NCBI RefSeq assembly: GCF_014725735.1
Contig: NZ_CP061368.1
Location: 269,001 to 333,000 of the forward strand
DNA length: 64,000 nt
Source: Wenzhouxiangella sp. AB-CW3
GTDB lineage: Bacteria > Pseudomonadota > Gammaproteobacteria > Xanthomonadales > Wenzhouxiangellaceae
Direction of reading: 5' to 3'
Shown here: piece by piece, positions 1 through 61,829 of the stretch
How the letters are laid out: each line of letters starts with the position of its first letter
How positions within the stretch are numbered: the stretch's first letter is position 1
The notes under the pieces: generated by a model
The model's input: only the letters and a program-made list of their open reading frames with translations
Told to the model about the DNA's origin: nothing
The model's database searches: none
Position numbers and translations under genes: made by a program

Positions 1-177
1 CGGCCCGCCGACTTCGGCCAGCCACTGGCCCTGGTGATCGAGCAGGCGATGACTGGCCGCCGGTTCGATCAGTGCCGAGCGGGGCCAGGCGGCCAGCAGC
101 AGCCACACACAGGCCAGCAGCAGGGTCGCGCCCGGCAGCCATGCGATCCGCAGCGGCACCTGCCGGGGCCCGTTCAT
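1..177 (-). CDS. pbpC: Penicillin-binding protein 1C (PbpC), N-terminal fragment running off the window
   Basis: Only the first 59 residues are in the window. They start MNGPRQVPLRIAWLPG, then a hydrophobic segment (about residues 16-31), then PRSALIEPAASHRLLDHQGQ, which resembles the short cytoplasmic tail, single transmembrane anchor and 'LLDRxGxxL' entry of PBP1C-type peptidoglycan glycosyltransferases. The ATG shares one base with the TGA of the upstream alpha-2-macroglobulin gene (TGATG at 175-179), so translation is probably coupled. In E. coli and many proteobacteria a macroglobulin gene directly precedes pbpC, which supports the call as much as the short sequence does. The catalytic domains lie outside the window. 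If correct, it would polymerise glycan strands at the periplasmic face of the inner membrane. Confidence 0.72.
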   Translation of the reverse strand, partial: MNGPRQVPLRIAWLPGATLLLACVWLLLAAWPRSALIEPAASHRLLDHQGQWLAEVGGP

Positions 178-39070: not shown

Positions 39071-39430
39071 GTGAATCCTGGGCCCTTGTCGCATTGGTCT
39101 TTTGAGATGGCGTGAAAATCGTTTCGCTTTATCCAAAAACAGTTGAATATCAAGCTTTTCTTTGTTCAGAGAAGATTAGCTTCGCGTTCAGAATGTATTG
39201 GCAATCCCCTTTTCATCGCCATTCGATGATGCTAGTATCGGCGGCGAGTCGGAGGGCCGGCCTTGCTCGGGTCGCCATTTTGGCGTGCCGGTGTAGCCGG
39301 ACTTTTCGCTCAGGCCGTGCGCTGTGAATAATCAGGTGCACTGTCGAACGCATATAGAAAAGCCCTTAAATGGTGCAAATCAGAAGATAGCTTATTGAGT
39401 GCAAATCAAGAAGACAAACTGGAGAGTCTG
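39071..39430. other. Regulatory-looking gap before the first TonB receptor
   Basis: 360 bp, more AT-rich than the coding DNA around it. It holds two near-identical direct repeats, GTGCAAATCAGAAGA (39373) and GTGCAAATCAAGAAGA (39399), 26 bp apart and close to the receptor start. They could be regulator binding sites. GGAGAG at 39421 is a plausible ribosome binding site. No gene is visible. Confidence 0.5.
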
Positions 39431-46035: not shown

Positions 46036-46499
46036 GCGCTCTCGCTAGATTCGGGTCAGGTCGCCGGTCCTTCCGGGTGTTTCGGAATCAATTCTGCTCC
46101 GGGCGAAAAATGGAATTCCGATCTTATAGACCATGAGTTGGCCAATTGATTCCTCGGGAAATCCACGAAAATTGGACGATTGGGGTCGCCTGGATTGGGT
46201 CTTTTACGCGCCGTGGCCATTTTGCGAGTGGTCATCAGGCGTGGGTGAGTTGTGTTTTTTGCTGTCAATTCAAGCAGTTAAAAAGCCGTATCCGGATGTT
46301 GTGAATTGATCATGATGAGGTTCAGGAAATATTAAGAAAGTGTTGCGCTTGTGCAGGCAGCTTGCTAGCATTGAAGCGGTGGAAGTTAGGTTTTCAGCAC
46401 TGTTGCTTAAGGTCGATGGTGCGATTTCCAAATACACATCACAACATCCGACTCGATAACCAAACCAGAAATCTTTGTAACTTGATGGAGGCAATCAGA
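46036..46499. other. AT-rich leader of the second TonB receptor
   Basis: 464 bp between the interrupted gene and the receptor, divergent. More AT-rich than surroundings, with several A/T runs that suit a regulated promoter, but no box can be placed with confidence. GGAGG at 46487 is the ribosome binding site for the receptor at 46500. Confidence 0.4.
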
Positions 46500-49400
46500 A
46501 TGGTTGAGTTCAATAAAAGGCTATTGCCTGCGGCGATCGCCGTTGCGCTGGCCGGTGTTTACGGCATGCCGTCGGCATTTGCCCAGCAGAATGACGAGGC
46601 AGAAACCGAGGAAGAGGCAGCAGATCTGGACCGGATCGTCGTAACCGGTTCACGTATTCGAAGCATTGACATGGTGACCACCCAGCCGGTGACCACCATC
46701 GACAGCGACTATCTCACCGAGCGCGGCCAGGTCAACGTGCAGGACGCCGTGACCGATATCCCGGGCGTTTCGGCAGCGGCTTCGCCGATTCTGCCGTCAA
46801 ATACCGCAGCGGCCGGCCAGGGTCTCGGGCAGCGCACCATCAACCTGTTCGGGCTGGGTTCGCAGCGTACCCTGACCCTGGTCAACGGCAGTCGCTTCGT
46901 TTCCAGTAACTCCCCGGTTGGGGGCGCATCCGCCCCTGGTGGTCAGCTTGACGTCAACAATATCCCGGTGGGCCTGGTCGAGCGCATCGAAGTCATGAAT
47001 GTGGGTGGCTCGGCCATCTATGGCGCTGATGCCGTGGCCGGTGTGGTCAACTACATCCTCAAGGACGACTACGAGGGCATGGAGCTGGCTGCCGACTACC
47101 GTTTCATCGGTGAGGACATCGGCAACGAGGTCTCCATCCGCGGTCTGCTGGGCGGCAACTTCGACAACAATCGAGGCAACCTGGTATTCGGTATCGAGTA
47201 CAACGAAATGGACAACATTCCGGCCCGGGATGTTCCGTCGTTTGCCAACACCTATTCTTCGTTTACCCCGGTCGGCGATGACATGGTGCCCGATCCGGAG
47301 ACCGGCGAAGTGCCGGGCAACCAGGTTCGGCTCTATCCCGACCCCCGTGCCGGCATTCTGTCGTTCACCGGCATCATCGCTCCGGGGCCGCTGGCCATCA
47401 CCAATGTTGGTCTCGGTATCTGGCCTGACGGGCAGTTCCGTCAGTTCGATGGTCAGGGCGGCATCATTCCGTATGACCCGGGCACCCCGACGGGTAACCA
47501 GGTGTGGGGCTCCGGCGGTGACGGTCTGGACCTTGAGGCCACGAATACGGCCCAGGAAGGCTACGAGCGCTGGAACGTCGTCAGTATCGGTCATTACGAC
47601 ATCAACGACCATGTGCGGGCCACCACCCAGGTGTTTGCCAACCGCTACTTCGCCGAGAACCCGGGTTACCAGGCCCAGCTCTACAGTTCCGGCGCCTTTG
47701 GCGGCATGAGTGCTGCCCTGCAGTTCCCGCTGGACCACCCCTTCCTGCCCCAGGCTGCACGTGACGAGCTTGAAGGCGTGATGCCGGTCGATGAGGATGG
47801 CAATGCCCAGGACTTCTTCTACCTGCATCGTGGCTGGACCAATCTCGGTGCGCGTGAAGTCACCAATGAAAGCAACACCTTCAGCTCGCGCGTCGGTCTG
47901 GAAGGCGAGTTCGAGTTGGCCGACCGCGACTGGTTCTGGGAAGTTGGCTATCAGTATGGCGAAAGCGGCATTTCCTCCTCGTCGACGGGCGTCAATGACT
48001 GGCGCTGGCTGGCGGCCATGGACGTGGCTACCAATCCCGAAACCGGCCAGATCGACTGCCGCTTCAACTTCGAGGAAGGCTACGGTGAAGAGTTGCGGCC
48101 GCGTGGCATGGGTATCGCCGCGGCCGATATGCCCCTGGGCAATCCGGGCGACTGCGTGCCGTTCAACCCCTTCGGTGAAGTCTCCGAGGAAGCCAAGGAT
48201 TACATCAGCTACAGCACGGGCGGTCGCACCCGGATCGAGCAGGAAGTCTACAGCGCCTTTATCGGCGGTGATCTGTTCGAACTGCCCGCCGGCATGCTGG
48301 CCTTTGCCGGTGGCGTGGAGCACCGTACCGAGTTCGCTTCCTTCACCGCCAGCCCGGTTGCCAGCCTGAAGGGTCTGTCCGACAACTCGTTGGCTGGTGG
48401 ATATGACACCACCGACGTCTACGGCGAATTCCTGGCCCCGCTGGTTTCGCCGGACATGGAGATCCCGTTCCTGAACGCGCTGACCTTCGAAGGCTCCTAC
48501 CGGGCCATCGACAACAGCCTGGCCGGCACCGATGACACCTGGGCGATTGGTCTGAACTACCGTCCGATCGAAGACGTCATGATTCGTGCCAACATGCAGG
48601 AAACCGTGCGTGCCCCGGCGGTGACCGAACTGTTCCTGCCGGTGGTCGAGAGCAGCCAGTTCGCGAACGACCCCTGTGACGGCCGTTTCCGCGGCTCGGG
48701 GCCGGATCCGGCAACGCGTCAGGCCAACTGTGATGCCGAAGGTATTCCGGCGGACTTTGTCAGCATTGCGCCCAACGCATCGCGTCGCGGTTTCTCCGGC
48801 GGCAACCTCGATCTCGAAAACGAGCAGGCCGAAAGCTACAACATCGGTATTGCCTACAGCCCGTCCTTTATCCCCGGGCTGCTGCTGCAGGTCGACTACA
48901 TCGAGATCGATATCGAGGACGCCATCGTCAGCTTCTCGCTCAACGACATCATGGAAGCCTGTTACGACTCCACGGACTTCCCGAACCAGTTCTGTGACAT
49001 GTTCGATCGTGGTCCGGACTTCCAGGTGCCGACGACCGATGCCTTTACCTCGGGCTACGTGAATGCCGCGATGCGCGAGTTCCGTGCCGTGTCCTACGAC
49101 ATTCGTTACGATACCGATGTCAACGACCTGCCGGGGCTGGGCGGACTGTTCGGTGATACCTATGCCGGTCGCCTGCATGTCAACCTGCGCGCTTACAACC
49201 AGAAGAAGAATGCCACTTCAAATACAGGCTTCGACTTCAGCGACATCACCGGGCAGCACAACAGTCCGGACTGGCGTGGAGATTTGCGTCTCCGGCACAC
49301 GCTTGGTGACCTGACCACCCTGCTGGATATTTCCTATCACGGCCGGGGCCGTCGCGACAACTTCCAGACCAGCGACGTGCAGTACCTCGATCAGGATGGC

Positions 49401-49589
49401 AATCCGTACACTCACATTCCGAGCCAGACCAGGGCCAACCTGGCGGTCAACTACACCCTGCCGACCGGTACGGTGTTGCGGGCTCGTGTGACCAACCTGT
49501 TCGACAAGTTGCCTGGTCCTCTTGAGCGAGGCGTTGCTCGCTGGGAGTTCGGTCGCAGCTACAACATCGGTCTGACCCACCGTTTCTAA
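46500..49589 (+). CDS. TonB-dependent outer-membrane receptor
   Basis: 1029 residues from ATG 46500 (MVEFNKRLLPAAIAVAL), signal cleavage near PSAFA-QQN. A TonB-box-like LDRIVVTGSRIRS, then a plug with INLFGLGSQRTLTLVNGSRFV and SAIYGADAVAGVVNYILKDD. The barrel ends GRSYNIGLTHRF with C-terminal Phe. It is a paralogue of the receptor at 39431 with a similar plug but different extracellular loops. Ligand unknown. Close to the TonB operon that starts 404 bp downstream. Confidence 0.93.
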   Translation: MVEFNKRLLPAAIAVALAGVYGMPSAFAQQNDEAETEEEAADLDRIVVTGSRIRSIDMVTTQPVTTIDSDYLTERGQVNVQDAVTDIPGVSAAASPILPSNTAAAGQGLGQRTINLFGLGSQRTLTLVNGSRFVSSNSPVGGASAPGGQLDVNNIPVGLVERIEVMNVGGSAIYGADAVAGVVNYILKDDYEGMELAADYRFIGEDIGNEVSIRGLLGGNFDNNRGNLVFGIEYNEMDNIPARDVPSFANTYSSFTPVGDDMVPDPETGEVPGNQVRLYPDPRAGILSFTGIIAPGPLAITNVGLGIWPDGQFRQFDGQGGIIPYDPGTPTGNQVWGSGGDGLDLEATNTAQEGYERWNVVSIGHYDINDHVRATTQVFANRYFAENPGYQAQLYSSGAFGGMSAALQFPLDHPFLPQAARDELEGVMPVDEDGNAQDFFYLHRGWTNLGAREVTNESNTFSSRVGLEGEFELADRDWFWEVGYQYGESGISSSSTGVNDWRWLAAMDVATNPETGQIDCRFNFEEGYGEELRPRGMGIAAADMPLGNPGDCVPFNPFGEVSEEAKDYISYSTGGRTRIEQEVYSAFIGGDLFELPAGMLAFAGGVEHRTEFASFTASPVASLKGLSDNSLAGGYDTTDVYGEFLAPLVSPDMEIPFLNALTFEGSYRAIDNSLAGTDDTWAIGLNYRPIEDVMIRANMQETVRAPAVTELFLPVVESSQFANDPCDGRFRGSGPDPATRQANCDAEGIPADFVSIAPNASRRGFSGGNLDLENEQAESYNIGIAYSPSFIPGLLLQVDYIEIDIEDAIVSFSLNDIMEACYDSTDFPNQFCDMFDRGPDFQVPTTDAFTSGYVNAAMREFRAVSYDIRYDTDVNDLPGLGGLFGDTYAGRLHVNLRAYNQKKNATSNTGFDFSDITGQHNSPDWRGDLRLRHTLGDLTTLLDISYHGRGRRDNFQTSDVQYLDQDGNPYTHIPSQTRANLAVNYTLPTGTVLRARVTNLFDKLPGPLERGVARWEFGRSYNIGLTHRF

Positions 49590-49892: not shown

Positions 49893-49922
49893 TTGCGTTG
49901 GCGCCTCGGACGTGCGTAGAAT
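49893..49922 (+). promoter_or_regulatory. Putative promoter of the TonB operon
   Basis: TTGCGT and TAGAAT are spaced by 18 bp, with the start of the first gene about 70 bp further on. The -10 box matches five of six consensus bases, the -35 only three. The rest of 49690-49993 shows nothing I can name. Confidence 0.3.
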
Positions 49923-49993
49923 GTGTGCCTTTCCGGTTTCGCGCAGGGCGGAGCCGACGAATCACCCAATCCAAAACACGTGATGAACTGGGC

Positions 49994-50785
49994 ATGAAGA
50001 TACTGACCAAACGACAAGCTTTCGGCCTCGGCGCTTCCATCGCCGGCGGTCTTTTTCTGCTGACGAGCTTCAGCGTCTACACGCAGGAGATCGAGCCGGT
50101 GCTCGAGACCAGCCGTCAGGCCGCTGAGGGTACCCGCGAGTCTCAGGAGCGCATCGACGAGCTCGATCAGCGTACCCAGGAGCTGCTGAGCGAGTACCGG
50201 GCGAACCTGAACCAGCTCGAGCAGCTCAACCGCTACAACGCTTCCCAGGAGCGCCAGGTTGAGTCGCAGCGCCGCGAGCAGGAATCGCTGCGCAACGACA
50301 TCAACAACATCGCCAGCCTCCAGCGCGCCGTGCAGCCGCTGATGGAGGACATGGTCGACGCGCTGGGTCGCCTCGTCGAGGCCGACGTCCCCTTCCTGCT
50401 GGAAGAGCGCCGCGAGCGCGTCGAGCGCCTGCAGAACGCCATGGACGATCCCGATCGTTCTCCCGCCCAGCGCTATCGCATGGTGATCGAGGCTTACCAG
50501 ATCGAGAACGAGTATGGCCGCACCATCGAAGGCTACCGTGGCGATATCGAAGTCGACGGGCGGCTCTACGAGAATGTCGAGTTCCTCCGCATCGGCCGTG
50601 TGTCGCTGATCTTCCGCACCGACGATAACGAAGTCATCAAACGCTACGATGCTTCGGCCGGTGGCTGGGTCGATCTCGACCGCGCCTACCTCGATGACAT
50701 CAGAACCGCCTCGCGAATTGCCCGTGAGCGCATTCCGCCGGACCTGATGTTCATTCCGGTGACCGCGCCGCGCGACGCCGAATAA
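49994..50785 (+). CDS. DUF3450 family periplasmic coiled-coil protein, first gene of a TtpC-type TonB operon
   Basis: 263 residues from ATG 49994 (MKILTKRQAFGLGASIAGG), with a signal or anchor segment GLGASIAGGLFLLTSFSVYT. From about residue 30 to 130 it is almost all heptad coiled coil (ETSRQAAEGTRESQERIDEL, EYRANLNQLEQLNRYNASQE), then a beta-rich part RTIEGYRGDIEVDGRLYENV...GRVSLIFRTDD typical of DUF3450. Members precede TtpC-like ExbB genes in Vibrio/Shewanella-type TonB2 clusters, so it probably works with that complex in the periplasm. Confidence 0.85.
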   Translation: MKILTKRQAFGLGASIAGGLFLLTSFSVYTQEIEPVLETSRQAAEGTRESQERIDELDQRTQELLSEYRANLNQLEQLNRYNASQERQVESQRREQESLRNDINNIASLQRAVQPLMEDMVDALGRLVEADVPFLLEERRERVERLQNAMDDPDRSPAQRYRMVIEAYQIENEYGRTIEGYRGDIEVDGRLYENVEFLRIGRVSLIFRTDDNEVIKRYDASAGGWVDLDRAYLDDIRTASRIARERIPPDLMFIPVTAPRDAE

Positions 50786-50799
50786 CGGAGGTGGAACGG

Positions 50800-52215
50800 A
50801 TGATCAACACACGACACATTAAACTGAATGCAACCTCCGAGGGCAGGGATGATATGACCTCCAAGACTTCCAACCGACTGGTCGCGGTCGTGGCCGCCTC
50901 GGTGCTGGCGCTGGGCGCCTTTGCACCCGCCTTGCAGGCCCAGCCGCAAACGCTTGCAGACGTGCTGCGGGCCATGCAGACCGAGCGCGATCAGGTGGCC
51001 GCAGAGAACCGTGAGCGTGAAGAGCGCTTTCGCCAGGAGCAGGTCGATCGCGAAGCCGAGCTGAACCGGGTACGCAACGAGGTGCAGGCCGCCGAAGAAG
51101 AGGCCAGCCGTCTCGAAAACCTGCGTAACGAGCTTGATCGCGAGCTCGAAGAGCTGCGCGCCCAGCTGACCGAGCGCCAGGGCGAGTTTGGCGAGCTGTT
51201 TGGTGTAGCCCGTGCCGCGGCTGCCGACCTCAATGAAGAGCTCGAGGAATCGTTGATCTCTTCCCAGAAGCCGGGGCGTGGAGAAGGACTCTCCCGCATG
51301 GCCCAGGCCGGAACGCTGCCGACCATCGATGAGCTCGAAGGTCTCTGGTTCACCATGCTGGACCAGGCGACCGAGCAGGGTCGCGTGGTGCGCTACGAAG
51401 CACCGGTGATTCGTGCTGACAACACCTCGGTCGATGAGACCGTGGTGCGTGTCGGGCCGTTTACCGCCTTCACTGATCGCGGCTTCATGACCTACGAGGC
51501 TGGCACCCTGCGCTATCTGCCCCGCCAGCCCGGTGGTGGCGCCGTGCGGGCCGCCCAGCGTGTTTTCAACCATACTGACGACGGCGTGGTTCGCGGCATG
51601 ATCGACCCCTCCCTGGGCACCCTGCTCGGGCTGGTGATCGAGACCCCGACGATCCGTGAGCGCATCGACCAGGGTCAGTGGATTGGCTACGCCATTATCG
51701 TGGTAGCAATTTTCGGTATTCTGCTGGCCGTCTACCGCTGGGTTGTCCTGACTGTGACCTCGATTCGGGTCCGCAAGCAGATGAAGTCTTCAACGCCTTC
51801 GGAAAACAATCCGCTTGGCCGCATCATGCTGGCTTACAACGAGCACCGGCATGAGGACCTGGAGACGCTGCAGTTGCATCTGGACGACGCCGTCCTCAAG
51901 GAGATTCCGAAGCTTGAACGCGGCCTGAACCTGGTCAAGGTTCTCGCTGCCGTCGCCCCCCTGATGGGTCTGCTCGGTACGGTGATCGGCATGATTGTCA
52001 CCTTCCAGGCCATTACCCTGTTTGGTACGGGCGATCCGCAGCTGATGGCCGGCGGTATCTCCCAGGCCCTGATCACCACGGTGCTGGGTCTGATTGCGGC
52101 GGTACCATTGCTGCTGCTGCATGCCTTCGCTGCCGGGGCATCGCGACGCCTGTCGCAGGTCCTGGAAGAGCAGTCGGTCAGTTTCGTGGCCGATGCCGGC
52201 GACGACAAGAAGTGA
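50800..52215 (+). CDS. TtpC-like MotA/TolQ/ExbB proton-channel protein
   Basis: 471 residues from ATG 50800, eight bases after GGAGG; an ATG at 50854 directly before the signal-like segment is possible too. A hydrophobic leader (RLVAVVAASVLALGAFAPAL) is followed by a long periplasmic coiled coil (about residues 60-130), a beta-rich middle part, a membrane segment WIGYAIIVVAIFGILLAVYRW, and the TolQ/ExbB domain (LVKVLAAVAPLMGLLGTVIG, GGISQALITTVLGLIAAVPLL). TtpC is an extra ExbB-like subunit needed in Vibrio TonB2 systems. It pairs with the ExbB part of the next gene. Confidence 0.9.
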   Translation: MINTRHIKLNATSEGRDDMTSKTSNRLVAVVAASVLALGAFAPALQAQPQTLADVLRAMQTERDQVAAENREREERFRQEQVDREAELNRVRNEVQAAEEEASRLENLRNELDRELEELRAQLTERQGEFGELFGVARAAAADLNEELEESLISSQKPGRGEGLSRMAQAGTLPTIDELEGLWFTMLDQATEQGRVVRYEAPVIRADNTSVDETVVRVGPFTAFTDRGFMTYEAGTLRYLPRQPGGGAVRAAQRVFNHTDDGVVRGMIDPSLGTLLGLVIETPTIRERIDQGQWIGYAIIVVAIFGILLAVYRWVVLTVTSIRVRKQMKSSTPSENNPLGRIMLAYNEHRHEDLETLQLHLDDAVLKEIPKLERGLNLVKVLAAVAPLMGLLGTVIGMIVTFQAITLFGTGDPQLMAGGISQALITTVLGLIAAVPLLLLHAFAAGASRRLSQVLEEQSVSFVADAGDDKK

Positions 52216-52243
52216 TGCCGTTCGTACCTGAGGCGAGAGAACT

Positions 52244-53209
52244 GTGCTACTTGAACTGCTGAATCCGGCCAACGTGGTCGCCATCATCGGGAACTATCTC
52301 GATGCTGGCGGCCCCGTGGTGGTCGCCTTGCTGTGCAGCACGGCCCTGATGTGGCTGCTGATCAGTGAGCGTACGCTGTATTTCTGGTTTGCCGGCCCGC
52401 GACTGCGCAAGAAGCAGAACCGGCGCTGGCAGGAAATCAGCGATCACCGCAGCTGGGAATCCTACGCTTTTCGTGAGCGGCTGATCTCCGAGGTCCGGGT
52501 CGAGAACGAGCGTTTCATGAACGTGATCAAGGCCCTGATCCTGATCACGCCGCTGCTTGGCCTGCTGGGTACCGTGACCGGCATGATCCAGGTCTTCCAG
52601 GTGATCGTGGAAACGGGAGCCTCAAATGCCCGCCTGATGGCGGAAGGGATCTCCCGGGCCACGATCCCGACCATGACCGGACTGGCCGTGTCGCTGACCG
52701 GGGTGTTTTCCATCAGTTACCTGGAGCGGCGTAACGATGTGCTGACCACGCGCATGGCCGAGGAGCTGGATGTCGAGGCGGCCATGGCCTACGGTGCAAC
52801 GCGCCGAATGACCGGGTCGGACATGGACGAGGCGGAAGTGAATATCACGCCGCTGCTCGATATCGTATTCATCCTGCTGATCTTTTTCATCGTGACAGCG
52901 ACCTTCCTGGACGAGATCGGTATCGGTCTGCAGACTCCACAGGACGATCCCCCTGACGAGATCACCCGGCCACCGCCCACGCTGGTACTCAGTGTGCGCA
53001 GTGACGGCTTTGTCATGGTGGACGATGCCCGGACCATTGATCCGCGCTCGGTCACGCCGGTGGTCGAAGCATTCAGGGCGGAGAATCCCGAGGGTGTGGT
53101 CCTGTTGAACGCAGCCCCGGATGCGCGTGTCGAAACAACTGTACTGGTGCTGGACCAGTCGCGTCAGGCGGGTGTAGACCCGGCGGTGGCTATCCAGGAG
53201 CGCCAATAA
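52244..53209 (+). CDS. ExbB-ExbD fusion protein
   Basis: 321 residues from GTG 52244. Residues 1-188 are an ExbB/TolQ protein (ALILITPLLGLLGTVTGMIQ, then GISRATIPTMTGLAVSLTGV). Residues 189-321 are an ExbD protein starting at MTGSDMDEAEVNITPLLDIV with the essential Asp and the single membrane helix FILLIFFIVTATFL, then a periplasmic domain ending in QAGVDPAVAIQ. The two are usually separate genes. The junction CGAATGACC is in frame; a one-base shift would give the usual TGA/ATG overlap. Both termini at the join are cytoplasmic, so the fusion is topologically sound. ATG 52808 or 52823 could give a free ExbD. Confidence 0.88.
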   Translation: MLLELLNPANVVAIIGNYLDAGGPVVVALLCSTALMWLLISERTLYFWFAGPRLRKKQNRRWQEISDHRSWESYAFRERLISEVRVENERFMNVIKALILITPLLGLLGTVTGMIQVFQVIVETGASNARLMAEGISRATIPTMTGLAVSLTGVFSISYLERRNDVLTTRMAEELDVEAAMAYGATRRMTGSDMDEAEVNITPLLDIVFILLIFFIVTATFLDEIGIGLQTPQDDPPDEITRPPPTLVLSVRSDGFVMVDDARTIDPRSVTPVVEAFRAENPEGVVLLNAAPDARVETTVLVLDQSRQAGVDPAVAIQERQ

Positions 53210-53224
53210 CGGGTTGATTGAACT

Positions 53225-53635
53225 ATGATTAGACGTAACAGAAGATCAGGTGCAGGTGACGAGGGTGATGTCAACGTCACACCGTTGCTCGACATCGTCT
53301 TCATCATGCTGATTTTCTTCATTGTCACCGCGACGTTCATTTCGGAGCCGGGTATTACAGTCAACCGGCCGGATGCCGATACGGCCGAAGAACAGCGGCT
53401 GGTGTCCATTCTGGTGGCGATCAACTCCAATAACGAAATCTGGATCAATCGCCAGGAGGTGCCCCTTGAGGGGGTGCGGTCCGCGGTTGAACGCTTGCGG
53501 CGGGAGAACCCCCGCGGCAGTGCCGTTGTCCAATCAGATGGCGGCGCACACAGCGAGTACCTCGTCGAGGTGCTAGACCAGATTCGTGCTGCCGGCGTAG
53601 ATGACGTTGTTGCCGTATCCATTAGAAGATCATGA
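53225..53635 (+). CDS. exbD: ExbD-family biopolymer transport protein
   Basis: 136 residues: GDVNVTPLLDIVFIMLIFFI has the essential aspartate and membrane helix; the periplasmic part ends EVLDQIRAAGVDDVVAVSIR, close to the ExbD part of the preceding fusion (EVLDQ/VLDQ...AGVD). It is the second ExbD of the operon. Its stop overlaps the tonB start (ATGA, 53632-53635). Confidence 0.94.
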   Translation: MIRRNRRSGAGDEGDVNVTPLLDIVFIMLIFFIVTATFISEPGITVNRPDADTAEEQRLVSILVAINSNNEIWINRQEVPLEGVRSAVERLRRENPRGSAVVQSDGGAHSEYLVEVLDQIRAAGVDDVVAVSIRRS

Positions 53636-54234
53636 GTACAATTCTTAGACTGCTAGGCGGGATCCCAGGCGCCGTGATCGTCACGGTCGGGCTGTTTTTG
53701 CTTCTTGCCACCGTGATTACCCAGCGCCAGGATGTTGATCTCGGCGATGAAACTGCGATCGAGATCAACGTCACTCGACAGATCGAGGATCGGGCCGATC
53801 AGCGTGTGGAGGATTTCCAGCGGCCAGTGTTGGATCAGCCACCGCCGCCGCCGCCCATGGTGACCGATACCGACTTCCGGCCCACCATGGATGTTCAGAT
53901 GGGCGCCTTGCCCGATCTGACCGGCGTGGATGTCGAAATCGGCACCGGCTTCGATCCGGACCGAGATGCGCAGCCACTGGTGCGGATTCCGCCACAGTAT
54001 CCAACGCAGTGCATTGGTCGGGCACAGGACGTGGAAACCGTGATGGTCGAATTCGACGTCACGCCAGAGGGTAACGTGGTCGATCCTCGGGTTCTGGACA
54101 CGACCAACCCATGCTTCAACCGCGCGGCAATGCGAGCGGTGCAACGCTGGAGATACAATCCGCGCGTCGTCGACGGGGTACAACAACCAAGAACAGGTGT
54201 CCGCACCGCGATCGATTTTGCACTGGAGGAATAG
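53632..54234 (+). CDS. tonB: TonB-family energy transducer
   Basis: 200 residues. N-terminal membrane helix GAVIVTVGLFLLLATVI, a short proline stretch DQPPPPPPMV, then the TonB C-terminal domain: LVRIPPQYPTQCIGRA, VMVEFDVTPEGNVVDPRVL, NRAAMRAVQRWRYNPRVVDG. Two cysteines (PTQC and TNPC) may form a disulfide, as in TonB2-like proteins. The proline-rich linker is short, so it may need the DUF3450 and TtpC partners to span the periplasm. Confidence 0.93.
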   Translation: MSTILRLLGGIPGAVIVTVGLFLLLATVITQRQDVDLGDETAIEINVTRQIEDRADQRVEDFQRPVLDQPPPPPPMVTDTDFRPTMDVQMGALPDLTGVDVEIGTGFDPDRDAQPLVRIPPQYPTQCIGRAQDVETVMVEFDVTPEGNVVDPRVLDTTNPCFNRAAMRAVQRWRYNPRVVDGVQQPRTGVRTAIDFALEE

Positions 54235-54235
54235 G

Positions 54236-55681
54236 GTGAACTTGTTTTCTACCGTACAGGCACGGCTCCTGGCGGCCTGCACGCTGTGCATGGGCCTGAT
54301 GATGACGGCCTCGCTGGTCTGGGCTGAAACTCTGAATCCCCAGGTAGCGGGTGATCTGCTCGATGCCTATGAAGAGATGGAGGAGGACAACTACGACGAG
54401 GCTCTGAGGCTGCTCAATCGGCTCATGGATCGGCGGGGCGATGCCATGACACCCTTCGACCGTGCCTCTGTGCTTCAGATTCGTGGTTCGGCCCATGTCA
54501 ACCTCGACATGCTGGATGAAGCGATCGACGATTTTCGTACCGTGTTGCGACTCGATGCCCTGCCTTCAGAGACACAGAACCAGATGCGGCTCAACCTGGG
54601 GCAGCTCTACTTCATGACCGAGCGCTTCGAGGAGTCGCTGGAGTTCTTCGACGAGTGGATCGGGACTGAAGGGGTAGAGATTACCCACTCCACGTGGTTC
54701 ATGATTGCAGCCGCCAATTACAACCTCGAGAACTACGAAGATGCGCTGGAGCCGATCAGCACGGCCATGGAGTTGGTCGACGAGCCAACGCGTCGCTACT
54801 ACGACCTGAAGAATGTCCTGCTGTCGAATCTGGAGCGTACCGAGGAGCGTACCGAATTGATGGCGGAGATGGTGCAACACTGGCCTGAGGAGTTGCCTTA
54901 CTGGCGCCAGCTTGCTTCGCTTTATATGGAGCAGGATGACATGTTCCGGGCGTTCGCCATCATGGAAGCAGCCTATGTCAATGACATGCTCAGCGACGAG
55001 AGTGACATTGTCATGCTGGCCCAGTACTACTCCAACTTCGACAACCCTCACCGCGGTGCTAATCTCCTGGAGAAGGAAATGGAAGCAGGGCGCGTGGAGC
55101 GTAATGTCGATAACCTGCAGATGCTCTCGCAAATGCTGAGTCAGGCACGCGAACACCGTCGTTCGATTCCGGTCCTGCGAGAGGCCGCCGAACTTTCCGA
55201 TGATGGTCGGCTCTTTTTCCGTCTCGGTCAGGCGCTGATGGCATCCGAGAACAATGAAGATGCCGAAGAAGCGTTTGCTGCCGCCATCGATCAGGGTGGA
55301 CTGGACTCTGACAAGCTCGGCGAAGCCTGGTTGCTGCTCGGCAATTCCAGGCTCAATCAGGCCGGTCCGGGTGATCGTGACCAGCGAATGAGTGCCGACG
55401 AGGCATTTGCCGAAGCTGCCCGTTTCCCGATTGCCCAGCGGCAGGCCAATGAATGGCGCTCCTATATCGAGGCGATCAATACCACGGAACGGCGCCAGGC
55501 CCAGCTTGAGCAGGAGCAGCAGGAGCGTCTGGCCGAGGCCGCCGAGGACCGCCTGCTGACAGCCTGTCGCGCGCAGCAGCTTGGCGGAAGGCGCCTGAGC
55601 GAGGAGTGCGAGCGGCTGCTTGAGGAAGACCGCCGCCGCCGCGAAGAGCCGGTCGAGCCGGAAGCCGAAACCCAAGAGTAA
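54236..55681 (+). CDS. Periplasmic TPR protein of the TonB operon
   Basis: 481 residues from GTG 54236, five bases after GGAGGA and overlapping nothing. Signal peptide RLLAACTLCMGLMMTASLVWA. TPR-type helices run through most of the protein (YDEALRLLNRLMDRRGDAMT, ALASVLQ-like turns, LNLGQLYFMTERFEESLEFF, YNLENYEDALEPISTAMELV, ANLLEKEMEAG), ending in a charged EEDRRRREEPVEPEAE tail. A TPR gene after tonB is typical of TtpC-type clusters and was reported to help transport; here it probably scaffolds the complex. Confidence 0.88.
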   Translation: MNLFSTVQARLLAACTLCMGLMMTASLVWAETLNPQVAGDLLDAYEEMEEDNYDEALRLLNRLMDRRGDAMTPFDRASVLQIRGSAHVNLDMLDEAIDDFRTVLRLDALPSETQNQMRLNLGQLYFMTERFEESLEFFDEWIGTEGVEITHSTWFMIAAANYNLENYEDALEPISTAMELVDEPTRRYYDLKNVLLSNLERTEERTELMAEMVQHWPEELPYWRQLASLYMEQDDMFRAFAIMEAAYVNDMLSDESDIVMLAQYYSNFDNPHRGANLLEKEMEAGRVERNVDNLQMLSQMLSQAREHRRSIPVLREAAELSDDGRLFFRLGQALMASENNEDAEEAFAAAIDQGGLDSDKLGEAWLLLGNSRLNQAGPGDRDQRMSADEAFAEAARFPIAQRQANEWRSYIEAINTTERRQAQLEQEQQERLAEAAEDRLLTACRAQQLGGRRLSEECERLLEEDRRRREEPVEPEAETQE

Positions 55682-55746: not shown

Positions 55747-57789
55747 ATGCAAGCTCCTTCAGCGGTTCTAGACCGTGTTCGTCAGTTCTATGTTGAGGGT
55801 CGAATTGTCGATGCCACCGATCTGTGTATCGATGGCTTGATTGATGCCCCCGATGACCCTGAATTGCATTTTCTGCTGGCGCTGTGCGATGAGCAACAGG
55901 GCCGGTTTCAGGAAGCCCGAGCGCGGCTGGAGCGTGTGCTGAACGGTGCGGCCGAGCATGTCGAGGCACGCTTCAATCTCGCCCGTATGCTGGCTGCTGG
56001 CGGCGAGATCGAGCAGGCCCGGGCGCATCTGTCCGAGTGCGTGTCGCTGAACCCGGGGCACGCGGCGGCCCACACCCTGAGAGCGCGCATGGACCTGGTC
56101 GAGGGCCACCGGAAGCAGGCCCGGGCCGGATTCCGCACCGCCTTGCGCGCCGACGAGAACCATGTACCCGCGCTGTTGAGTCTGGCGTCCCTGCACCTGG
56201 ATGCCGCCGAGCTGGATCAGGCCAACGAATACGCCTCGCGAGCCGTACAGCTCGCGCCGACGGATGTCCGCGCACAACTGGTCATGGCGCAGGTGTTCAT
56301 GGCCAGGGGAATGTTTGACTTTGCCGAGCGTTGCCTGGGTAATGCGCTGTCGCTGGATGGTGGGCGCCTGGAGACGCACATTGTCCATGCGGAGTTGTTG
56401 CAGCATCAGGGTCGCCATCATGATGCGGTGTCCGCTTTCGAGCGCGCCCGTGCGGCCGGGGCCGAGCTTGGGGAGCTGTTGCCGGGGTTGGCCATCAGCC
56501 TGGCCCAGGTCGGACGGCTGGCCGAGGTCAATGCGCTGATCGATGTGTATGAGCCGGCTCCGAGTGATCAGGCCCTGTTGATCCACCTTTCCGATCTCCT
56601 CGTCGCACAAGGTGATGCCGACGGCCTGGCCCGGTTGGCCGGGCGAGTCGGTCGAACACTTCCGTCGCTCAGGTCCTGGCTGGAAGCCAGCCGTGCCGAG
56701 CTGATTGAAGACCACGGCACAGCCCTGGATAGGGCGGAGTCCTTGCTTGAAGAAGACGACCCCGATTTGCAGCTTCGGGCGCGTCTGCTGGTCGGCCGGA
56801 TTGGTGTGGAAAGGAACGATCCGGAATCGGTGGCCGATGCAGTGGCCTGTCTGGCCGAGCAGCGCCAGGCCAGTGAGACGATGTGCTGGGAGGCCGCGCA
56901 ACTGCTGCGCGATGTGAATTTGCCCGAAGCCGGGGAGCGTGTCCTCGGTCATCTGCTGGAGCGCAAGAAGCTGGATGAGCAGGTGCGTGCCCGGACCCAG
57001 AACCTGCGTGTGGACCTGCTGGACCGTGCTGGCGACTACCAGGCGGCCACCGAACTGATGGAGCATGCGGCCTGGCGGCAGCCCGTACTGGGCGAACCGG
57101 CTTATCTGGAGTGGCGCGGAGATGTCGAAGAGGCGCTGGCCCCCGTACTGGCCGAGGACTGGGAGGGTTTGCCATCCGATGGTGACGGTTCCAATCCGGT
57201 GTTTGTCGGTGGGTGGCCTTACGAAGGGCGCGACCTGATGCTTGCCGCGCTTGCCCGGATGCCGGGCCTGGGTGTGATGCCCGAGGCCGAATGGTCCGGG
57301 CGCCTGGAGTGTCTGGAGCTGCCAGTGGATGTCCGCCGTTTTGGCAGGGCCGACCCGGCGTTGCTGCATCTGGCCCGACGGCGATACCTGCGTCACCAGC
57401 CCAGGGGGCGCCGGCCCGTGGAGCCGGCCTTTGTGCAGGCAGCCGATCTGGCACAGATTGCTCGCCTGTTTCCCGGTGCGGCCTATATTCGTCCGACTGC
57501 CACCGAGCACTATCTCCGGATGCAATGGCAGTTGGCTGGTTACCAACGGATCCAGGACATGCTCGATGCCTGGCGCCATGACCTGGACGTGCTGGGGCAT
57601 CTGCGTGATGCGCTGCCGATCAGTATCATCGACGTGCCTGTTGACAGGCTGCTCACCGATCCTGCCGATGCACTGGCCAGATTGCATGAGGCGCTGTCGG
57701 TTGCACAGGGCGAAGACATGAGCGGCTTGCTCAAGCACCTGGCCGACAGGCTGGGCTACCGCCAACCGGATCACTGGCAGAACTATTGA
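55747..57789 (+). CDS. TPR protein with a degenerate sulfotransferase-like C-terminal domain
   Basis: 680 residues, no signal peptide. Residues 1-460 are TPR repeats (AEHVEARFNLARMLAAGGEI, EQARAHLSECVSLNPGHAAA, LLSLASLHLDAAELDQANEY). From about residue 480 the order NPVFVGGWPYEGRDLMLAAL resembles the 5'-PAPS loop 'FxVGxPRSGTTxL' of TPR-sulfotransferases, and a LFPGAAYIRPTATEHYLRMQ part resembles their 3'-phosphate loop region, but the PRSGT core is changed to WPYEG and the usual Ser/Thr are missing. I infer a non-catalytic or altered derivative. It follows the TonB operon after 65 bp. Confidence 0.65.
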   Translation: MQAPSAVLDRVRQFYVEGRIVDATDLCIDGLIDAPDDPELHFLLALCDEQQGRFQEARARLERVLNGAAEHVEARFNLARMLAAGGEIEQARAHLSECVSLNPGHAAAHTLRARMDLVEGHRKQARAGFRTALRADENHVPALLSLASLHLDAAELDQANEYASRAVQLAPTDVRAQLVMAQVFMARGMFDFAERCLGNALSLDGGRLETHIVHAELLQHQGRHHDAVSAFERARAAGAELGELLPGLAISLAQVGRLAEVNALIDVYEPAPSDQALLIHLSDLLVAQGDADGLARLAGRVGRTLPSLRSWLEASRAELIEDHGTALDRAESLLEEDDPDLQLRARLLVGRIGVERNDPESVADAVACLAEQRQASETMCWEAAQLLRDVNLPEAGERVLGHLLERKKLDEQVRARTQNLRVDLLDRAGDYQAATELMEHAAWRQPVLGEPAYLEWRGDVEEALAPVLAEDWEGLPSDGDGSNPVFVGGWPYEGRDLMLAALARMPGLGVMPEAEWSGRLECLELPVDVRRFGRADPALLHLARRRYLRHQPRGRRPVEPAFVQAADLAQIARLFPGAAYIRPTATEHYLRMQWQLAGYQRIQDMLDAWRHDLDVLGHLRDALPISIIDVPVDRLLTDPADALARLHEALSVAQGEDMSGLLKHLADRLGYRQPDHWQNY

Positions 57790-57869
57790 CCGGCCCGGCG
57801 TTTCGGTCTCGCTCCCCTGGTCGGACCCGGACTGAAGCGTCTGCGCCCTGTGATAATATCGGGCCGCAG

Positions 57870-60800
57870 ATGAAATCGGTGGCTTGCAATGACGTGCGAT
57901 ATCAACCCGCCATCCTGACCTGGTGGCTGGCGATGCTGTTGCTTATCCTGGCAACCGCGTCAACAGCAGCCCACGACCTCGGTCCGGTGGTGCGATCGAT
58001 TTCGGTGTCCGACGGGCTGCCCGACAGCATGGTCGAGGCGGTTATCCAGGATGCTCATGGTTATGTCTGGATCGGCACGCAAAGCGGCCTGGTTCGCCAT
58101 GAAGGCGATCGGTTGAATATTCTGGGTGCCGATCCGGACAGCGACGATCCATTGCCCGGGCGCAATATCATGACGCTGGCCGCCCACAGCGACGGCACGG
58201 TCTGGGCCGCGGTCTCCGGGCAGGGCGTGGTCCAGATCGGCCCTGACCTCCTGCAGAAGCGCCATCTTGCGCCCAAGGCCAGAGGGGGGTCTTTGCCCGA
58301 CTCCAATGTCTGGAGCATGGTCGAGGACTGTCAGGGCGACATGTGGATGGCCCTGATGCAGGGGGGAGTGGTGCGCTTCCGCCCGGACACCGGCGAGTTG
58401 CAGCACTTTCCCCAGACCGAGGAGTCCGGACTCCATCCGGACGGCTTTCAGGTCAGCCTGGACCGTGGTGATGACTGCCGAATCTGGCTGGCGCAGACAG
58501 AACAGGTCAACGTGATCACCCCCGGCGAAGAGGATCGATTCCGCAAGGTGGCACCATCGTCGGAAGGGGGTACCATCCTGACCGTGCGCGTGCTTGATGG
58601 TGAGGTCTATTACAACGATCGTTCGCGCCTTTACAGGATTCGGGAATCGCATGACGAACCGGAGAAAGTGCTGCGCGCCGCGGGTGTTATCACGGACTTC
58701 ACCCTCGCCCCGGACGATGCCGACATTCTCGTGTCCAGCTACGCCGGCCTGTATCGCCTGCCCCGCAACGGTGCAACCCCAAGCTTGATCAGCGCCATTC
58801 AGGGACTGAACGACGGCTTGCCAAGCTCCACCTTGATGAGCGTGATGGTCGACCGTGAGGGGGGTACCTGGATGGGTATTCCACGACACGGAGTCGCGTA
58901 CCTGGCTCCGGGGCATGAAGCCTTCAGGCGCTATCAGTCAGTGCCCGGACGTGAGTCGGCACTGGACCTCGATGTCGTTTTTGCGCTGACCGAGCTGCCC
59001 GAGGCCAACCGGCTCTGGATGGGTGGCAGGTCGCGGGAGAGCATGCGCGTGCTGGACCTGAATACCGGCAGTGTCCAGAGCCTGGGCGAGTACCTGGACA
59101 ATCCGGAACTCGAAGAGATGGCCGCACCCGTTGCCGATCTGCATGTTGAACAGGACACCATGCTGGCAACATCCCTCCAATTTGTTGACCGTATCCATGC
59201 TGACGGCACGTCGGAGCGCCTTATCGACCGTGAAACCGTGGATGGCGGCACACCCAGCTTCGCCTTGCCCGATGGTGAGGCACATGTCTGGGTGGGAACC
59301 ATTGATGTCGGTTTGATCCGGCTGAATACCGAAACGGGTGAACGGGAGCACTTCTGGGGAGAGGGTGAAGGTCGTTATCATTGGCCGGAGGGGCGTCCGG
59401 TAGCGCTGGAGTCAGGCCCGGATGGACAGTGGTGGGCGCTTGCCGGCGGAGGTATCTACCGGCTGGAAGAAGATGGCTTCGTCCGTCAGGTTGAGCCCTC
59501 ACGCCCCCCCTTTCTCGCCGGTGGCTGGCACGGGGAGGAGTTATGGGCGGCTACCGAAACCCACCTCAAACGCTGGCGTCGGAATGGTCACGCGCTTGAA
59601 CAGACCGACCGGTTTGAAATGGCCGGGCACTTGCGTCCGGGGCGTGTCCTCAGGATCCTTCGACAGGAAGATGACTCGATCTGGCTGGCTCGATCCAGTG
59701 GCCTGGTCCACCTGGATCCTGATACTGGACATTTCCGTGAGTTTACCCGCGCCGATGGGCTGGCAGTCAGCGAGCTTCGTCGTCGGGCCATTACCTGGCT
59801 GGCCGACGGCCGCCTGGTGCTGGGTGGTACGGGCGGCCTGGTCGTGGTGGATACCGACCTGGTGGGCGGAACCCGGGTAGAGCCCCCGATTTACGTGCGT
59901 GGCGTGAGCGTTGGGGGCCGTTTCCACGCCCTGTCTCCTGATCGTGAGCAACGCGAAAGGATCATGCTGTCTCACAACGAGAACAGCTTTTACGTCGACT
60001 ACACCGCGCTGTCCTACCTGTCGTTTGACCAGAATCGCTATCGTGTTCGGCTGGAGGGGTGGGATGACAAGTGGCTGGAACTGGTGGGTCAGACACGCTT
60101 TCACTACAGCAACTTGCCGCCCGGCGATTACCGTTTTCAGGTCCGGGCGGCAGCGGCCGATGGCCACTGGAACGAAACGGGAGATGCCGTCGAACTGTCG
60201 ATTCGGCAGCCCCCGTGGCTGAGTGGCTGGGCGCTGTCGGCCTACGCGATACTGGGTTTGACCGGTGTGGGTGCCGGCTGGAAAAGCTATTCCAATGCCC
60301 GTCGTCGGCGTCGTGAAATGCGCGAGGTACGACAGAAGCGGGTGCAGGCCGAGGAGCAGCGCCAGGTCATCGAGCGCCTAAATCGCAATCTGGATCCGCA
60401 AAGGCTGGCGACTACCATTGGCGAGGAGATGCTGGAAGTCACCGGTGGACGCGTCGCGTGGGTCGGCCTGACACAGGAGCATCTGCCCCGCCAAGTGATC
60501 CCGGTCGGTCAAGCGGACGAAGGGATCAGCCGTGAGGAATGGCGAAGTCGACTCAATGCTGCTGACGGCGAGACCTCCATGGCCGTCTCGCTGGAAAGCG
60601 AGGGCGAAGTCTTAGGTCAGGTGCTGATCGGTGCCGGTGCGGCCGGGTTTGTGCCCGCAGGCATCGAGCGGGTCAACCTGTTGCGGGAGATGTGCGGACA
60701 GGCACTGCGCAATGCCGCCCTGCTGGAACAAGTCCGGGCCCTGGCGGTGAGTGCAGAGCAGGCCAGTGCGGCCAAGTCCGAATTCCTGGCGACCATGAGT

Positions 60801-61829
60801 CACGAAATCCGTACCCCCCTGCACGGTGTGCTGGGCATGGTCGAGCTGCTATACGAATCAGAAAACGATCCCGCGCAGCAGGGGATTCTCAATACACTAA
60901 GGCAGTCCGGCTTGCAGTTGCAGCGCATCATCGACGATGTACTCGACATCTCGCGCATCGAGGCTGGTCGCCTGAGCCTGCACCCACAGCCCTTTGAACT
61001 GACGGCCATGCTCGAGCAGGTCATCGATCTGCACGCGCCCAATGCCGCCCGCAAGGGACTGGATTTGCGCCTGCGCATGGCATCCACGTTGCCGATCATG
61101 GCCATCGGCGATGCCGATCGCATTTCCCAGGTGCTGGGCAACCTGCTCAGCAATGCCGTCAAGTTCACCAACTTCGGTGGAATTGAACTCAATGCCGAGC
61201 TCGATGCGAAGGGCATGCTGCGCCTCACGGTCAGTGACTCGGGCTCCGGAATCAGCGCCCGGGATCGTGACCGATTGTTTGAACCGTTTACGCAGCTCGA
61301 CGCGTCCATCACGCGGTCACACAGCGGGTCGGGTCTGGGTCTGGCCATCTGCCGACGTCTGGTCAATGCCATGGACGGGCAACTGGAGCTGCTGGACAGT
61401 TGTTATCCGGGCAGCCGCTTTATGGTGCGGCTACCCCTGTTTCCGCAATCGCTTGGCAAGCCGGCACTGCCGCGAACCCGTCTGCTCGAGGGCATGGCCA
61501 TTGCCGTACTGGCCGAAGCGCCCACGCGTCGGGTGCTGCACCGCCTGTGTCGACGCTGGGGCGTGCAACTGATCAATGCCACCACCTCCGAACCGCGCCT
61601 GTGTTCGATTCTGCTGGTCGATGCGCGTTGCAGTCAGGTGCTGACCGACCCGGAAGAGTGGTGCGAGTACGCCACCCGCATTGCCTGGTTGCAGTCGCCC
61701 TACCTGCGCTCCAGTCCGGAAGAGGCGCGATTGCCCGAGGAAGCACACTTTCTGCGCTGGCCGCTGGTGGAGAGCCGACTGATCGGCATGTTGCTGGACC
61801 TGGCCATAGCCGGTGGACGCAAGCGCTGA
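57870..61829 (+). CDS. Hybrid sensor histidine kinase (two-component propeller, Y_Y_Y, GAF, HisKA, HATPase, pseudo-receiver)
   Basis: 1319 residues from ATG 57870. Signal-like start WWLAMLLLILATASTAAHD, then a two-component-type beta-propeller (repeated 'DGxxWxG/A' strands: YVWIGTQSGLVRHE, TVWAAVSGQGVVQI, GTWMGIPRHGVAYL), the Y_Y_Y domain near residues 695-770, one membrane helix (about 782-803), a GAF-like part (about 835-960), HisKA FLATMSHEIRTPLHG with His978, and HATPase with NLLSNAVKF (N box near 1091) and GSGLGLAICRRLV. The tail from 1207 looks like a receiver (SILLVDARCSQ, Asp1251) but the acidic pair is missing (VLAEAPTRR). No response regulator is adjacent. Confidence 0.9.
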   Translation: MKSVACNDVRYQPAILTWWLAMLLLILATASTAAHDLGPVVRSISVSDGLPDSMVEAVIQDAHGYVWIGTQSGLVRHEGDRLNILGADPDSDDPLPGRNIMTLAAHSDGTVWAAVSGQGVVQIGPDLLQKRHLAPKARGGSLPDSNVWSMVEDCQGDMWMALMQGGVVRFRPDTGELQHFPQTEESGLHPDGFQVSLDRGDDCRIWLAQTEQVNVITPGEEDRFRKVAPSSEGGTILTVRVLDGEVYYNDRSRLYRIRESHDEPEKVLRAAGVITDFTLAPDDADILVSSYAGLYRLPRNGATPSLISAIQGLNDGLPSSTLMSVMVDREGGTWMGIPRHGVAYLAPGHEAFRRYQSVPGRESALDLDVVFALTELPEANRLWMGGRSRESMRVLDLNTGSVQSLGEYLDNPELEEMAAPVADLHVEQDTMLATSLQFVDRIHADGTSERLIDRETVDGGTPSFALPDGEAHVWVGTIDVGLIRLNTETGEREHFWGEGEGRYHWPEGRPVALESGPDGQWWALAGGGIYRLEEDGFVRQVEPSRPPFLAGGWHGEELWAATETHLKRWRRNGHALEQTDRFEMAGHLRPGRVLRILRQEDDSIWLARSSGLVHLDPDTGHFREFTRADGLAVSELRRRAITWLADGRLVLGGTGGLVVVDTDLVGGTRVEPPIYVRGVSVGGRFHALSPDREQRERIMLSHNENSFYVDYTALSYLSFDQNRYRVRLEGWDDKWLELVGQTRFHYSNLPPGDYRFQVRAAAADGHWNETGDAVELSIRQPPWLSGWALSAYAILGLTGVGAGWKSYSNARRRRREMREVRQKRVQAEEQRQVIERLNRNLDPQRLATTIGEEMLEVTGGRVAWVGLTQEHLPRQVIPVGQADEGISREEWRSRLNAADGETSMAVSLESEGEVLGQVLIGAGAAGFVPAGIERVNLLREMCGQALRNAALLEQVRALAVSAEQASAAKSEFLATMSHEIRTPLHGVLGMVELLYESENDPAQQGILNTLRQSGLQLQRIIDDVLDISRIEAGRLSLHPQPFELTAMLEQVIDLHAPNAARKGLDLRLRMASTLPIMAIGDADRISQVLGNLLSNAVKFTNFGGIELNAELDAKGMLRLTVSDSGSGISARDRDRLFEPFTQLDASITRSHSGSGLGLAICRRLVNAMDGQLELLDSCYPGSRFMVRLPLFPQSLGKPALPRTRLLEGMAIAVLAEAPTRRVLHRLCRRWGVQLINATTSEPRLCSILLVDARCSQVLTDPEEWCEYATRIAWLQSPYLRSSPEEARLPEEAHFLRWPLVESRLIGMLLDLAIAGGRKR

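Follow-up and report, generated by a model that had tools for sequence, protein, structure and literature searches.

A conserved ExbB-ExbD fusion protein in the TonB2-type operon of Wenzhouxiangella sp. AB-CW3

The Ton motor of Escherichia coli has been described as a homopentamer of ExbB around two ExbD helices, both located in the pore, which yields an ExbB5-ExbD2 complex (PMC6778125). In Vibrio, the genes of the tonB2 operon are arranged in the order ttpB-ttpC-exbB2-exbD2-tonB2-ttpD, with ttpB in first position and the TPR gene ttpD in last position, and V. vulnificus was reported to depend on all six products for taking up siderophores (PMC6957404). Two further systems can be likened to the locus studied here by description alone. 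The Xanthomonas campestris cluster tonB-exbB-exbD1-exbD2 carries a tandem exbD pair, as does AB-CW3, and neither a fusion nor ttp genes are described in the accessible part of its report (PMC3551730). The gliding motor of Myxococcus combines an AglR ring with two different MotB-type axle proteins, AglQ and AglS, whose heterodimer formation is called unknown in the accessible part of the source (PMC9389320); this motor is unfused and has another function than the motor of AB-CW3.

ExbB and ExbD, parts of a membrane motor that drives the uptake of nutrients, are usually two proteins. Wenzhouxiangella sp. AB-CW3, a soda-lake bacterium, encodes an operon of the order ttpB-ttpC-exbB::exbDa-exbDb-tonB-ttpD, with all genes on the same strand and closely spaced (Table 1). 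In gene set and order it belongs with the Vibrio TonB2 (Ttp) system, which has six genes, separate exbB and exbD genes and one ExbD, whereas in AB-CW3 ExbB is fused to the first ExbD within one ORF and an ExbD is added. The fused ExbD is termed ExbDa and the free ExbD is termed ExbDb. TtpB, TtpC and TtpD were assigned by position and domain content, the Vibrio proteins themselves not being the basis of comparison. Unfused two-ExbD operons also exist in another class of the phylum (for example L106, L118 and L121), with separate exbB and exbDa genes unlike AB-CW3, and L106 shares the syntenic ttpB, ttpC, exbB, exbDa, exbDb, tonB and ttpD set.

The fused reading frame and its surroundings

The fusion is encoded by a single open frame that joins ExbB and ExbD in one chain, and the preliminary description, which had proposed such a polypeptide followed by a second, free ExbD, was borne out on both points. 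Pfam models detect MotA_ExbB at residues 75-172 (E 3.6e-20; 72.4 bits against a gathering score of 22.9) and ExbD (PF02472) at residues 195-312 (E 6.6e-21; 75.1 bits against a gathering score of 25.4). The protein thus belongs to the MotA/TolQ/ExbB proton-channel family (PF01618), also by its predicted ExbB/TolQ fold and its pore threonines, and to the ExbD/TolR family by its domain, the equivalent of the transmembrane Asp25 and the periplasmic fold. The equivalog models for ExbB of the E. coli type, TIGR02797 and TIGR02805, score below their curated cut-offs (24.2 of 206.2 bits and 22.5 of 135.35 bits, respectively).

Table 1. Features of the AB-CW3 operon (positions in the window, i.e. the whole 64,000-nucleotide stretch of DNA analyzed) and of the second fusion (positions in the respective locus)
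Feature	Position	Strand	Basis or remark
TtpB-like DUF3450 protein	49994..50785	+	PF11932, E 1.3e-73; TtpB identity from position and size; start set at first internal Met of the 49898-50785 frame
TtpC-like ring protein, 474 aa	50791..52215	+	Long N-terminal region and MotA_ExbB domain at 339-459; start possibly at a later ATG
Fused exbB::exbDa frame, 321 aa	52244-53209	+	GTG start
ExbB2-type moiety, residues 1-178, tail ...LDVE	52244..52777	+	Pfam, model match, end of unfused L121 ExbB
Thr110, pore Thr148 of E. coli ExbB	52571..52573	+	Alignment to E. coli ExbB
Arg138, at E. coli Glu176 position	52655..52657	+	Alignment to E. coli ExbB
Thr143, pore Thr181 of E. coli ExbB	52670..52672	+	Alignment to E. 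coli ExbB
New junction residues 179-186 (AAMAYGAT)	52778..52801	+	Fused against unfused junctions; exact borders approximate, deduced from the comparison
Met181 codon	52784..52786	+	Commonest in-frame linker ATG (17/25 junctions), not fixed
ExbDa moiety, residues 187-321	52802..53206	+	Pfam, TolR-like model, ExbDa side of ExbD tree
Asp206, essential TM Asp25 of ExbD	52859..52861	+	Alignment to ExbD
Tryptic peptide across the fusion junction			MAEELDVEAAMAYGATR
ExbDb, free ExbD, 136 aa	53225..53635	+	PF02472, E 1.3e-24
TonB	53632..54234	+	PF03544, E 4.7e-12; overlaps exbDb by 4 nt
TtpD-like TPR protein, last of conserved set	54197..55681	+	TPR models; start uncertain
Second fusion, L146	3605-4558	-	
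Second fusion, L155	4673-5620	-	
Second fusion, L156	4033-4980	-	
Second fusion, L157	4467-5414	-	

Domain folds and linker were read from an AlphaFold model built on 63 rows (pLDDT 75.0, pTM 0.49), from which no packing of ExbD on ExbB was drawn; a first model on 22 rows (pLDDT 62.8) was set aside. The predicted ExbB helices extend up to residue 174, the linker at 178-198 has pLDDT below 50 and ExbD follows from residue 202, its moiety consisting of one transmembrane helix (202-224) and a periplasmic domain. Residues 13-185 of the model match E. coli ExbB (5sv0_C) with Z 11.8 and an rmsd of 4.4 Å over 173 residues, and 17 of the top 20 rows of the structure search are ExbB or TolQ chains; helical models can reach Z values of about 13 without specificity, so this match carries weight chiefly in combination with the sequence evidence. 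The periplasmic part (residues 240-319) matches TolR (5by4) with Z 11.4 and an rmsd of 2.6 Å over 80 residues.

Thr110, Thr143 and Asp206 are invariant in 22 fused proteins, on which the statement relies because the motifs used for collecting rows partly force the counts at the Thr148, Thr181 and Asp25 positions in the wider set. Both pore threonines are also present in 41 distinct TtpC segments. At the position of E. coli ExbB Glu176, a residue which we take to be important, the fused ExbB has Arg (20) or Lys (4) in all 24 sequences and is in this respect not an E. coli-type ExbB; the 36 other ExbB rows have Lys (20), Arg (6), Gln (6), Met (2), Asn (1) or Tyr (1), so that Glu is absent from all 60 ExbB rows. 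In TtpC, the same position is occupied by Gln in 20 of 41 segments, Glu in 8, Met in 5 and other residues in 8. TonB2-type ExbB, mostly with Arg or Lys, and TtpC, most often with Gln, are possibly complementary subunits of a ring. Compared with the E. coli ExbB5-ExbD2 motor (6tyi), both domains are shared by sequence and predicted fold and the pore threonines and transmembrane aspartate are kept, whereas the E. coli motor has separate proteins, Glu176 in place of Arg or Lys, no TtpC and one kind of ExbD.

AB-CW3 expresses TonB complex subunits together with 14 of 16 TonB-dependent receptors, one of which is its most abundant protein, and an uptake of peptides or proteins has been suggested in the accessible part of that report (PMC7691419). 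Two TonB-dependent receptors are encoded 5' of the operon at 46362-49589 and 39395-42337 in the window and are likely clients of this motor; an IS66-family transposase (42917-44485) lies between their genes. Directly 3' of ttpD, a large TPR protein (55747-57789) shows a weak C-terminal sulfotransferase-like match (Pfam E 3.4e-4, under the curated cut-off), and a long ORF after the fused operon of G024 (L042 10619-12832) contains stretches that resemble this protein by eye. A 1347-aa sensor kinase (Y_Y_Y, HisKA, HATPase; 57786-61829) also adjoins the operon. Elsewhere in the window, a 1939-aa bacterial alpha-2-macroglobulin-like protein (177-5996) stands beside a 1686-aa protein that has no Pfam match at 1e-8.

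Conservation and origin of the fusion

A full-length, stop-free fusion is found in 24 of 43 genomes of the Wenzhouxiangella family, distributed over three genera (AB-CW3 itself and, at 67-91% identity, a further 23); Wenzhouxiangella limi strain C33 224 is one of the carriers, as are several MAGs that bear the Wenzhouxiangella label. One additional copy is truncated by a contig end and yet spans the junction (G006), and another is split by contig ends (G012). The remaining 17 genomes have either only matches of at most 44% identity (15) or no match at E<=1e-25 (2), and no unfused or re-split copy of the fusion type is listed among the 43. Separate genes in all relatives, named in the preliminary description as a counter-argument, are therefore refuted. 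Likewise, its alternative of a sequencing error or frameshift is ruled out by the 24 genomes with an intact copy, which leaves its other suggestion, a natural if unusual design; the AB-CW3 assembly itself combines nanopore and Illumina reads according to the accessible part of its report (PMC7691419). The fusion is thus confirmed as genuine, natural and inherited. In seven fused genomes of at least 90% completeness (G000, G007, G013, G016, G019, G023, G030), nothing but the fusion matches at E<=1e-25, and an unfused copy of the ExbB2 type was thus not found in them; more distant ExbB/TolQ-type genes do exist.

The arrangement of the gene is equally constant. GTG is the chosen start in 26 of 26 copies, where the codon nearest to the start of the match was selected, and in G024 an ATG lies two codons 5' of it. 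The ExbB TM3 motif and the ExbD transmembrane motif are 58 residues apart in 23 of 25 junctions and 60 in the other two. The fusion is adjoined by ttpC on its upstream side in 26 of 26 fused loci and followed by exbDb and tonB in 24, the other two ending at contig ends. Along 24 fused sequences, pN/pS is 0.41 in the N-terminal region, 0.10 in TM2-TM3, 0.55 in the linker, 0.07 in the ExbD transmembrane segment and 0.24 in the periplasmic domain. The linker evolves as coding sequence, because even at 0.55 amino-acid changes are fewer than silent changes.

Of the unfused relatives found, the nearest are syntenic operons that belong to another class. L106, for example, is 50% identical to AB-CW3 in TtpB, 56% in TtpC, 49% in ExbB, 60% in ExbDa, 62.5% in ExbDb, 52% in TonB and 39% in TtpD, and in the family of these L106-type relatives (L116-L130), ExbB and ExbDa are 46-55% identical to the fusion among the matches listed. 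Since these relatives keep exbB, exbDa and exbDb separate, the fusion is the derived state. Of 16 unfused loci, 14 gave a readable junction; exbB terminates 3-15 nt ahead of the exbDa ATG in these, and the two genes are in frame with each other in 13 of them. The unfused ExbB of L121 ends with ...SEDLEVE-stop, whereas the fusion reads ...AEELDVE-AAMAYGAT-RR at the matching point; residues 179-186 thus stand where unfused relatives have a stop, an intergenic spacer and a start codon, which seem to have been turned into about eight coding residues. A gapless alignment of the Arg pair maps the ancestral exbDa ATG to about residue 186, where no ATG, GTG or TTG is found in 25 fused sequences; Met181 was considered as a vestige of this start, which the alignment places nearer to residue 186. 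The loss of a TGA/ATG overlap by a one-base change, as first proposed for the junction, disagrees both with this spacing and with the mapped ATG, which falls at about residue 186 and not at 189.

Phylogenetic analyses were performed for the ring and axle proteins. In the ExbB tree, the 24 fused rows are set apart by a single branch (SH-aLRT 100) and lie among rows of the other class; a motif filter dropped some loci, 60 rows were kept, and support comes from a quick search with SH-aLRT alone. The ExbD tree splits an ExbDa side from an ExbDb side (99/88 in a careful search, 97 in a quick search), and both sides hold members of the fused family together with unfused members of families f264, f266 and f235. 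On this phylogeny, ExbDa and ExbDb are separate paralogs that stand side by side in the unfused operons of f264, f266 and f235. The ExbD of single-ExbD operons of the Wenzhouxiangella family falls on the ExbDb side. Counter to a simple two-paralog picture, the first ExbD of f256 two-ExbD operons is likewise placed with ExbDb (L107 and L110 in the quick tree, L110 in the careful tree). The careful tree comprises 112 rows over few columns (128) and 8 of the 24 fused genomes, leaving out the L107, L066, L069 and L140 rows; the quick tree comprises 10 of the 24 with SH-aLRT alone. In a TtpC tree (quick search, read from the Newick string, SH-aLRT alone), the fused-family rows (100) sit among the same unfused families. 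The simplest reading of these trees is that the two-ExbD operon entered the Wenzhouxiangella family by transfer and was fused afterwards; transfer in the reverse direction is a less simple possibility. The operon at 49898-55681 is nearest to that of another class, while other members of the family bear a different, single-ExbD TonB2-type operon, and its horizontal transfer is probable.

Another stop-free ExbB-ExbD frame was detected in 4 of 137 genomes of a family in the order of G780, namely in G1033 and, at 65-72% identity to it, in G1162, G1164 and G1166. All four operons read ttpB-ttpC-exbB-exbDa-exbDb-[exbB'::exbDa']-tonB-tonB'-ttpD. In the ExbD tree, the ExbD halves of these fusions group together (100/99) next to the free ExbDa of their own family (96/88), on the ExbDa side, although by BLAST they score better to ExbDb than to ExbDa of AB-CW3 in four of four cases, contrary to the tree. 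Judged from the trees, this second fusion is independent of that in the Wenzhouxiangella family, and ExbB has therefore been joined to an ExbDa-type ExbD at least twice, each time beside TtpC and a free ExbDb. As the second clade also has an unfused ExbB-ExbDa pair, its fusion may be auxiliary.

Elsewhere, no other stop-free ExbB-ExbD is listed for the class (369 genomes searched, 77 matching at 1e-25), the phylum (398 searched, 71 at 1e-20) or the class of G780 (385 searched, 23 at 1e-45), and the order of G780 (299 searched, 168 matching at 1e-30) yielded one fusion, G1033, among the matches listed. The genomes of 61 relatives were searched as well (matches listed); the sets overlap and amount to 1693 counted genomes, including the 43 of the family. 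The AB-CW3 fusion served as query, which reaches TonB2-type ExbB best, and the best few candidates per genome were considered in the larger sets. Ten long open frames, part of those in the tables, were inspected (G404, G203, G530, G895, G207, G192, G1103, G126, G146 and L129, the last a 442-aa ExbD frame), and ExbB and ExbD lie in separate frames in all ten. Among plasmids, 22 records match; annotated genes under two-domain matches are two features and some matches are unannotated. An apparent fusion in G051 (open frame 344) has two stops between ExbB and ExbD in translation. An apparent TtpC::ExbB fusion in a single genome, G087 (L112 735-2825, minus strand, 696 aa), was traced to a frame shift in the TtpC C-terminus, since the usual TtpC end and its TGATG overlap with ExbB are present in another frame (DNA read by eye); it is therefore gone as direct evidence for mixed rings. 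Phrase searches of a literature collection largely lacking subscription papers returned no report of ExbB-ExbD or TolQ-TolR fusions. In the genomes searched, ExbB-ExbD fusions of TonB2-type motors are rare outside the Wenzhouxiangella family.

Proposed assembly of a tethered motor

The preliminary description pointed out that a 1:1 fusion would force five ExbD copies into each ring unless subunits are freed, which presumes a homopentamer. As the neighboring gene codes for a further ring-type protein, the ExbB-type TtpC, the problem disappears with a mixed ring. The proposal that the fusion is the force-generating part of a TonB2-type motor, with a mixed TtpC/fusion ring and an axle of tethered ExbDa and free ExbDb, is given an even chance. 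Here, a pentameric ring would consist mostly of TtpC, which has its own MotA/ExbB domain, and contain one fusion subunit, or two at the most. From the cytoplasm, the tethered ExbDa helix would enter the pore and pair with a free ExbDb to form a heterodimeric axle; with one fusion per TtpC ring, a 5:2 stoichiometry, e.g. TtpC4 : fusion1 : ExbDb1, would thus be kept without spare helices. Proton flow past Asp206 and the ExbDb aspartate would drive TonB against outer-membrane receptors, in AB-CW3 probably for the uptake of peptides or proteins. The proposal is favored by the conservation of the fusion and of its neighbors ttpC and exbDb, by the seven genomes in which the fusion is the sole ExbB2-type match, by the paralogous ExbD pair of unfused operons and by the second fusion, which again stands beside TtpC and a free ExbDb. 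Many of the TonB2-type operons seen carry a single ExbD, so a heterodimer is no general need of such systems.

The C-terminus of ExbB and the N-terminus of ExbD are both cytoplasmic, and 27 residues separate helix 129-174 from helix 202-224 in the model. Such a linker could extend to about 90 Å, a geometry that would permit a tethered axle, and the assembly is topologically possible on both grounds. A single flexible tether at the free cytoplasmic end of the axle could swivel by bond rotation, whereas two tethers would braid and wind up; by this reasoning, continuous rotation would be possible only with a single tethered axle helix. Otherwise, the motor would work without continuous turning or the linker would be cut. 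A singly tethered motor, in which one ring subunit of a mixed TtpC/ExbB ring is covalently joined to half of an asymmetric ExbDa-ExbDb axle, is considered slightly less than evenly probable.

In one alternative, the fusion would be a precursor or leaky source from which internal initiation or proteolysis frees ExbDa, and a normal motor of separate subunits would assemble. Residue 181 is an in-frame ATG in 17 of 25 junctions, in AB-CW3 its duplex energy with the 16S tail (-5.9) resembles the mean of genuine ExbDb starts (-5.59), and the linker, predicted to be flexible, would be open to proteases. No start codon of the linker is conserved, however. The Met181 position is otherwise CTG, CTA, CTT or TTG (8/25), and Met189 and Met194, both present in AB-CW3 and put forward earlier as internal starts, are ATG in only 2 (TTG in 9) and 7 of 25 junctions, respectively. 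In L014 and L026, the stretch running from 25 to 2 codons ahead of the ExbD motif NITPLLD is free of ATG, GTG and TTG; L014 lacks any start codon between TM3 and this motif, and L026 has a sole GTG directly before it. The linkers of the second fusion in L155, L156 and L157 contain no Met before the ExbD motif (Met alone examined). Duplex energies at the internal site average -5.38 (n=25; -4.82 where the codon is ATG and -6.56 where it is not), which is close to the value at random in-frame positions (-4.17, s.d. 2.82, n=1040) and not as strong as at the exbDa starts of unfused relatives (-7.02, n=12, from 12 of 16 loci); the fusion's own start has -7.73. By these energies, internal starts cannot be told from ExbDb starts, and positions lacking a start codon do at least as well, so they are weak evidence. 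Owing to the absence of a conserved start codon and to the duplex energies, a conserved role for internal initiation is unlikely, although some free ExbDa may arise in this way in AB-CW3 itself; as a whole, release of ExbDa is regarded as an unlikely but still appreciable explanation.

A homopentamer of the fusion, with five ExbDa of which two helices are in the pore and three outside in the membrane and with TtpC as a separate ring or peripheral protein, would agree with the complete ExbB domain and both pore threonines of the fusion and with the homopentamer formed by E. coli ExbB (PMC6778125). It would, however, leave every ring with three surplus helices that each bury an aspartate, which seems wasteful; two tethered axle helices would stop continuous rotation; Arg or Lys at the Glu176 position in 24 of 24 sequences would place five such residues in one ring, presumably at a cost; and exbDb would be superfluous, yet all 24 loci that extend to its position retain it. 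This arrangement is therefore considered improbable. Less probable again is a nearly neutral fusion, in which a stop was lost once, the tether has no mechanistic meaning and assembly sets the stoichiometry as before. The linker is indeed the least constrained region of the fusion (pN/pS 0.55 against 0.07 to 0.41 elsewhere), but the lack of a re-split copy among the family genomes, despite identity down to 67%, and the second, independent fusion of the same kind of pair argue against it.

A natural tether fixes ExbB and ExbDa at 1:1 and limits their motion, and stoichiometry, heterodimerization and rotation therefore each become testable, as do mixed rings. If the full-length fusion works and both pore helices are tethered, continuous rotation would not occur and the Ton motor would be no free rotary engine; if only one helix is tethered, an obligate hetero-ring and a heterodimeric axle would be revealed. 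As the fusion arose twice, this constraint is arguably tolerated or useful.
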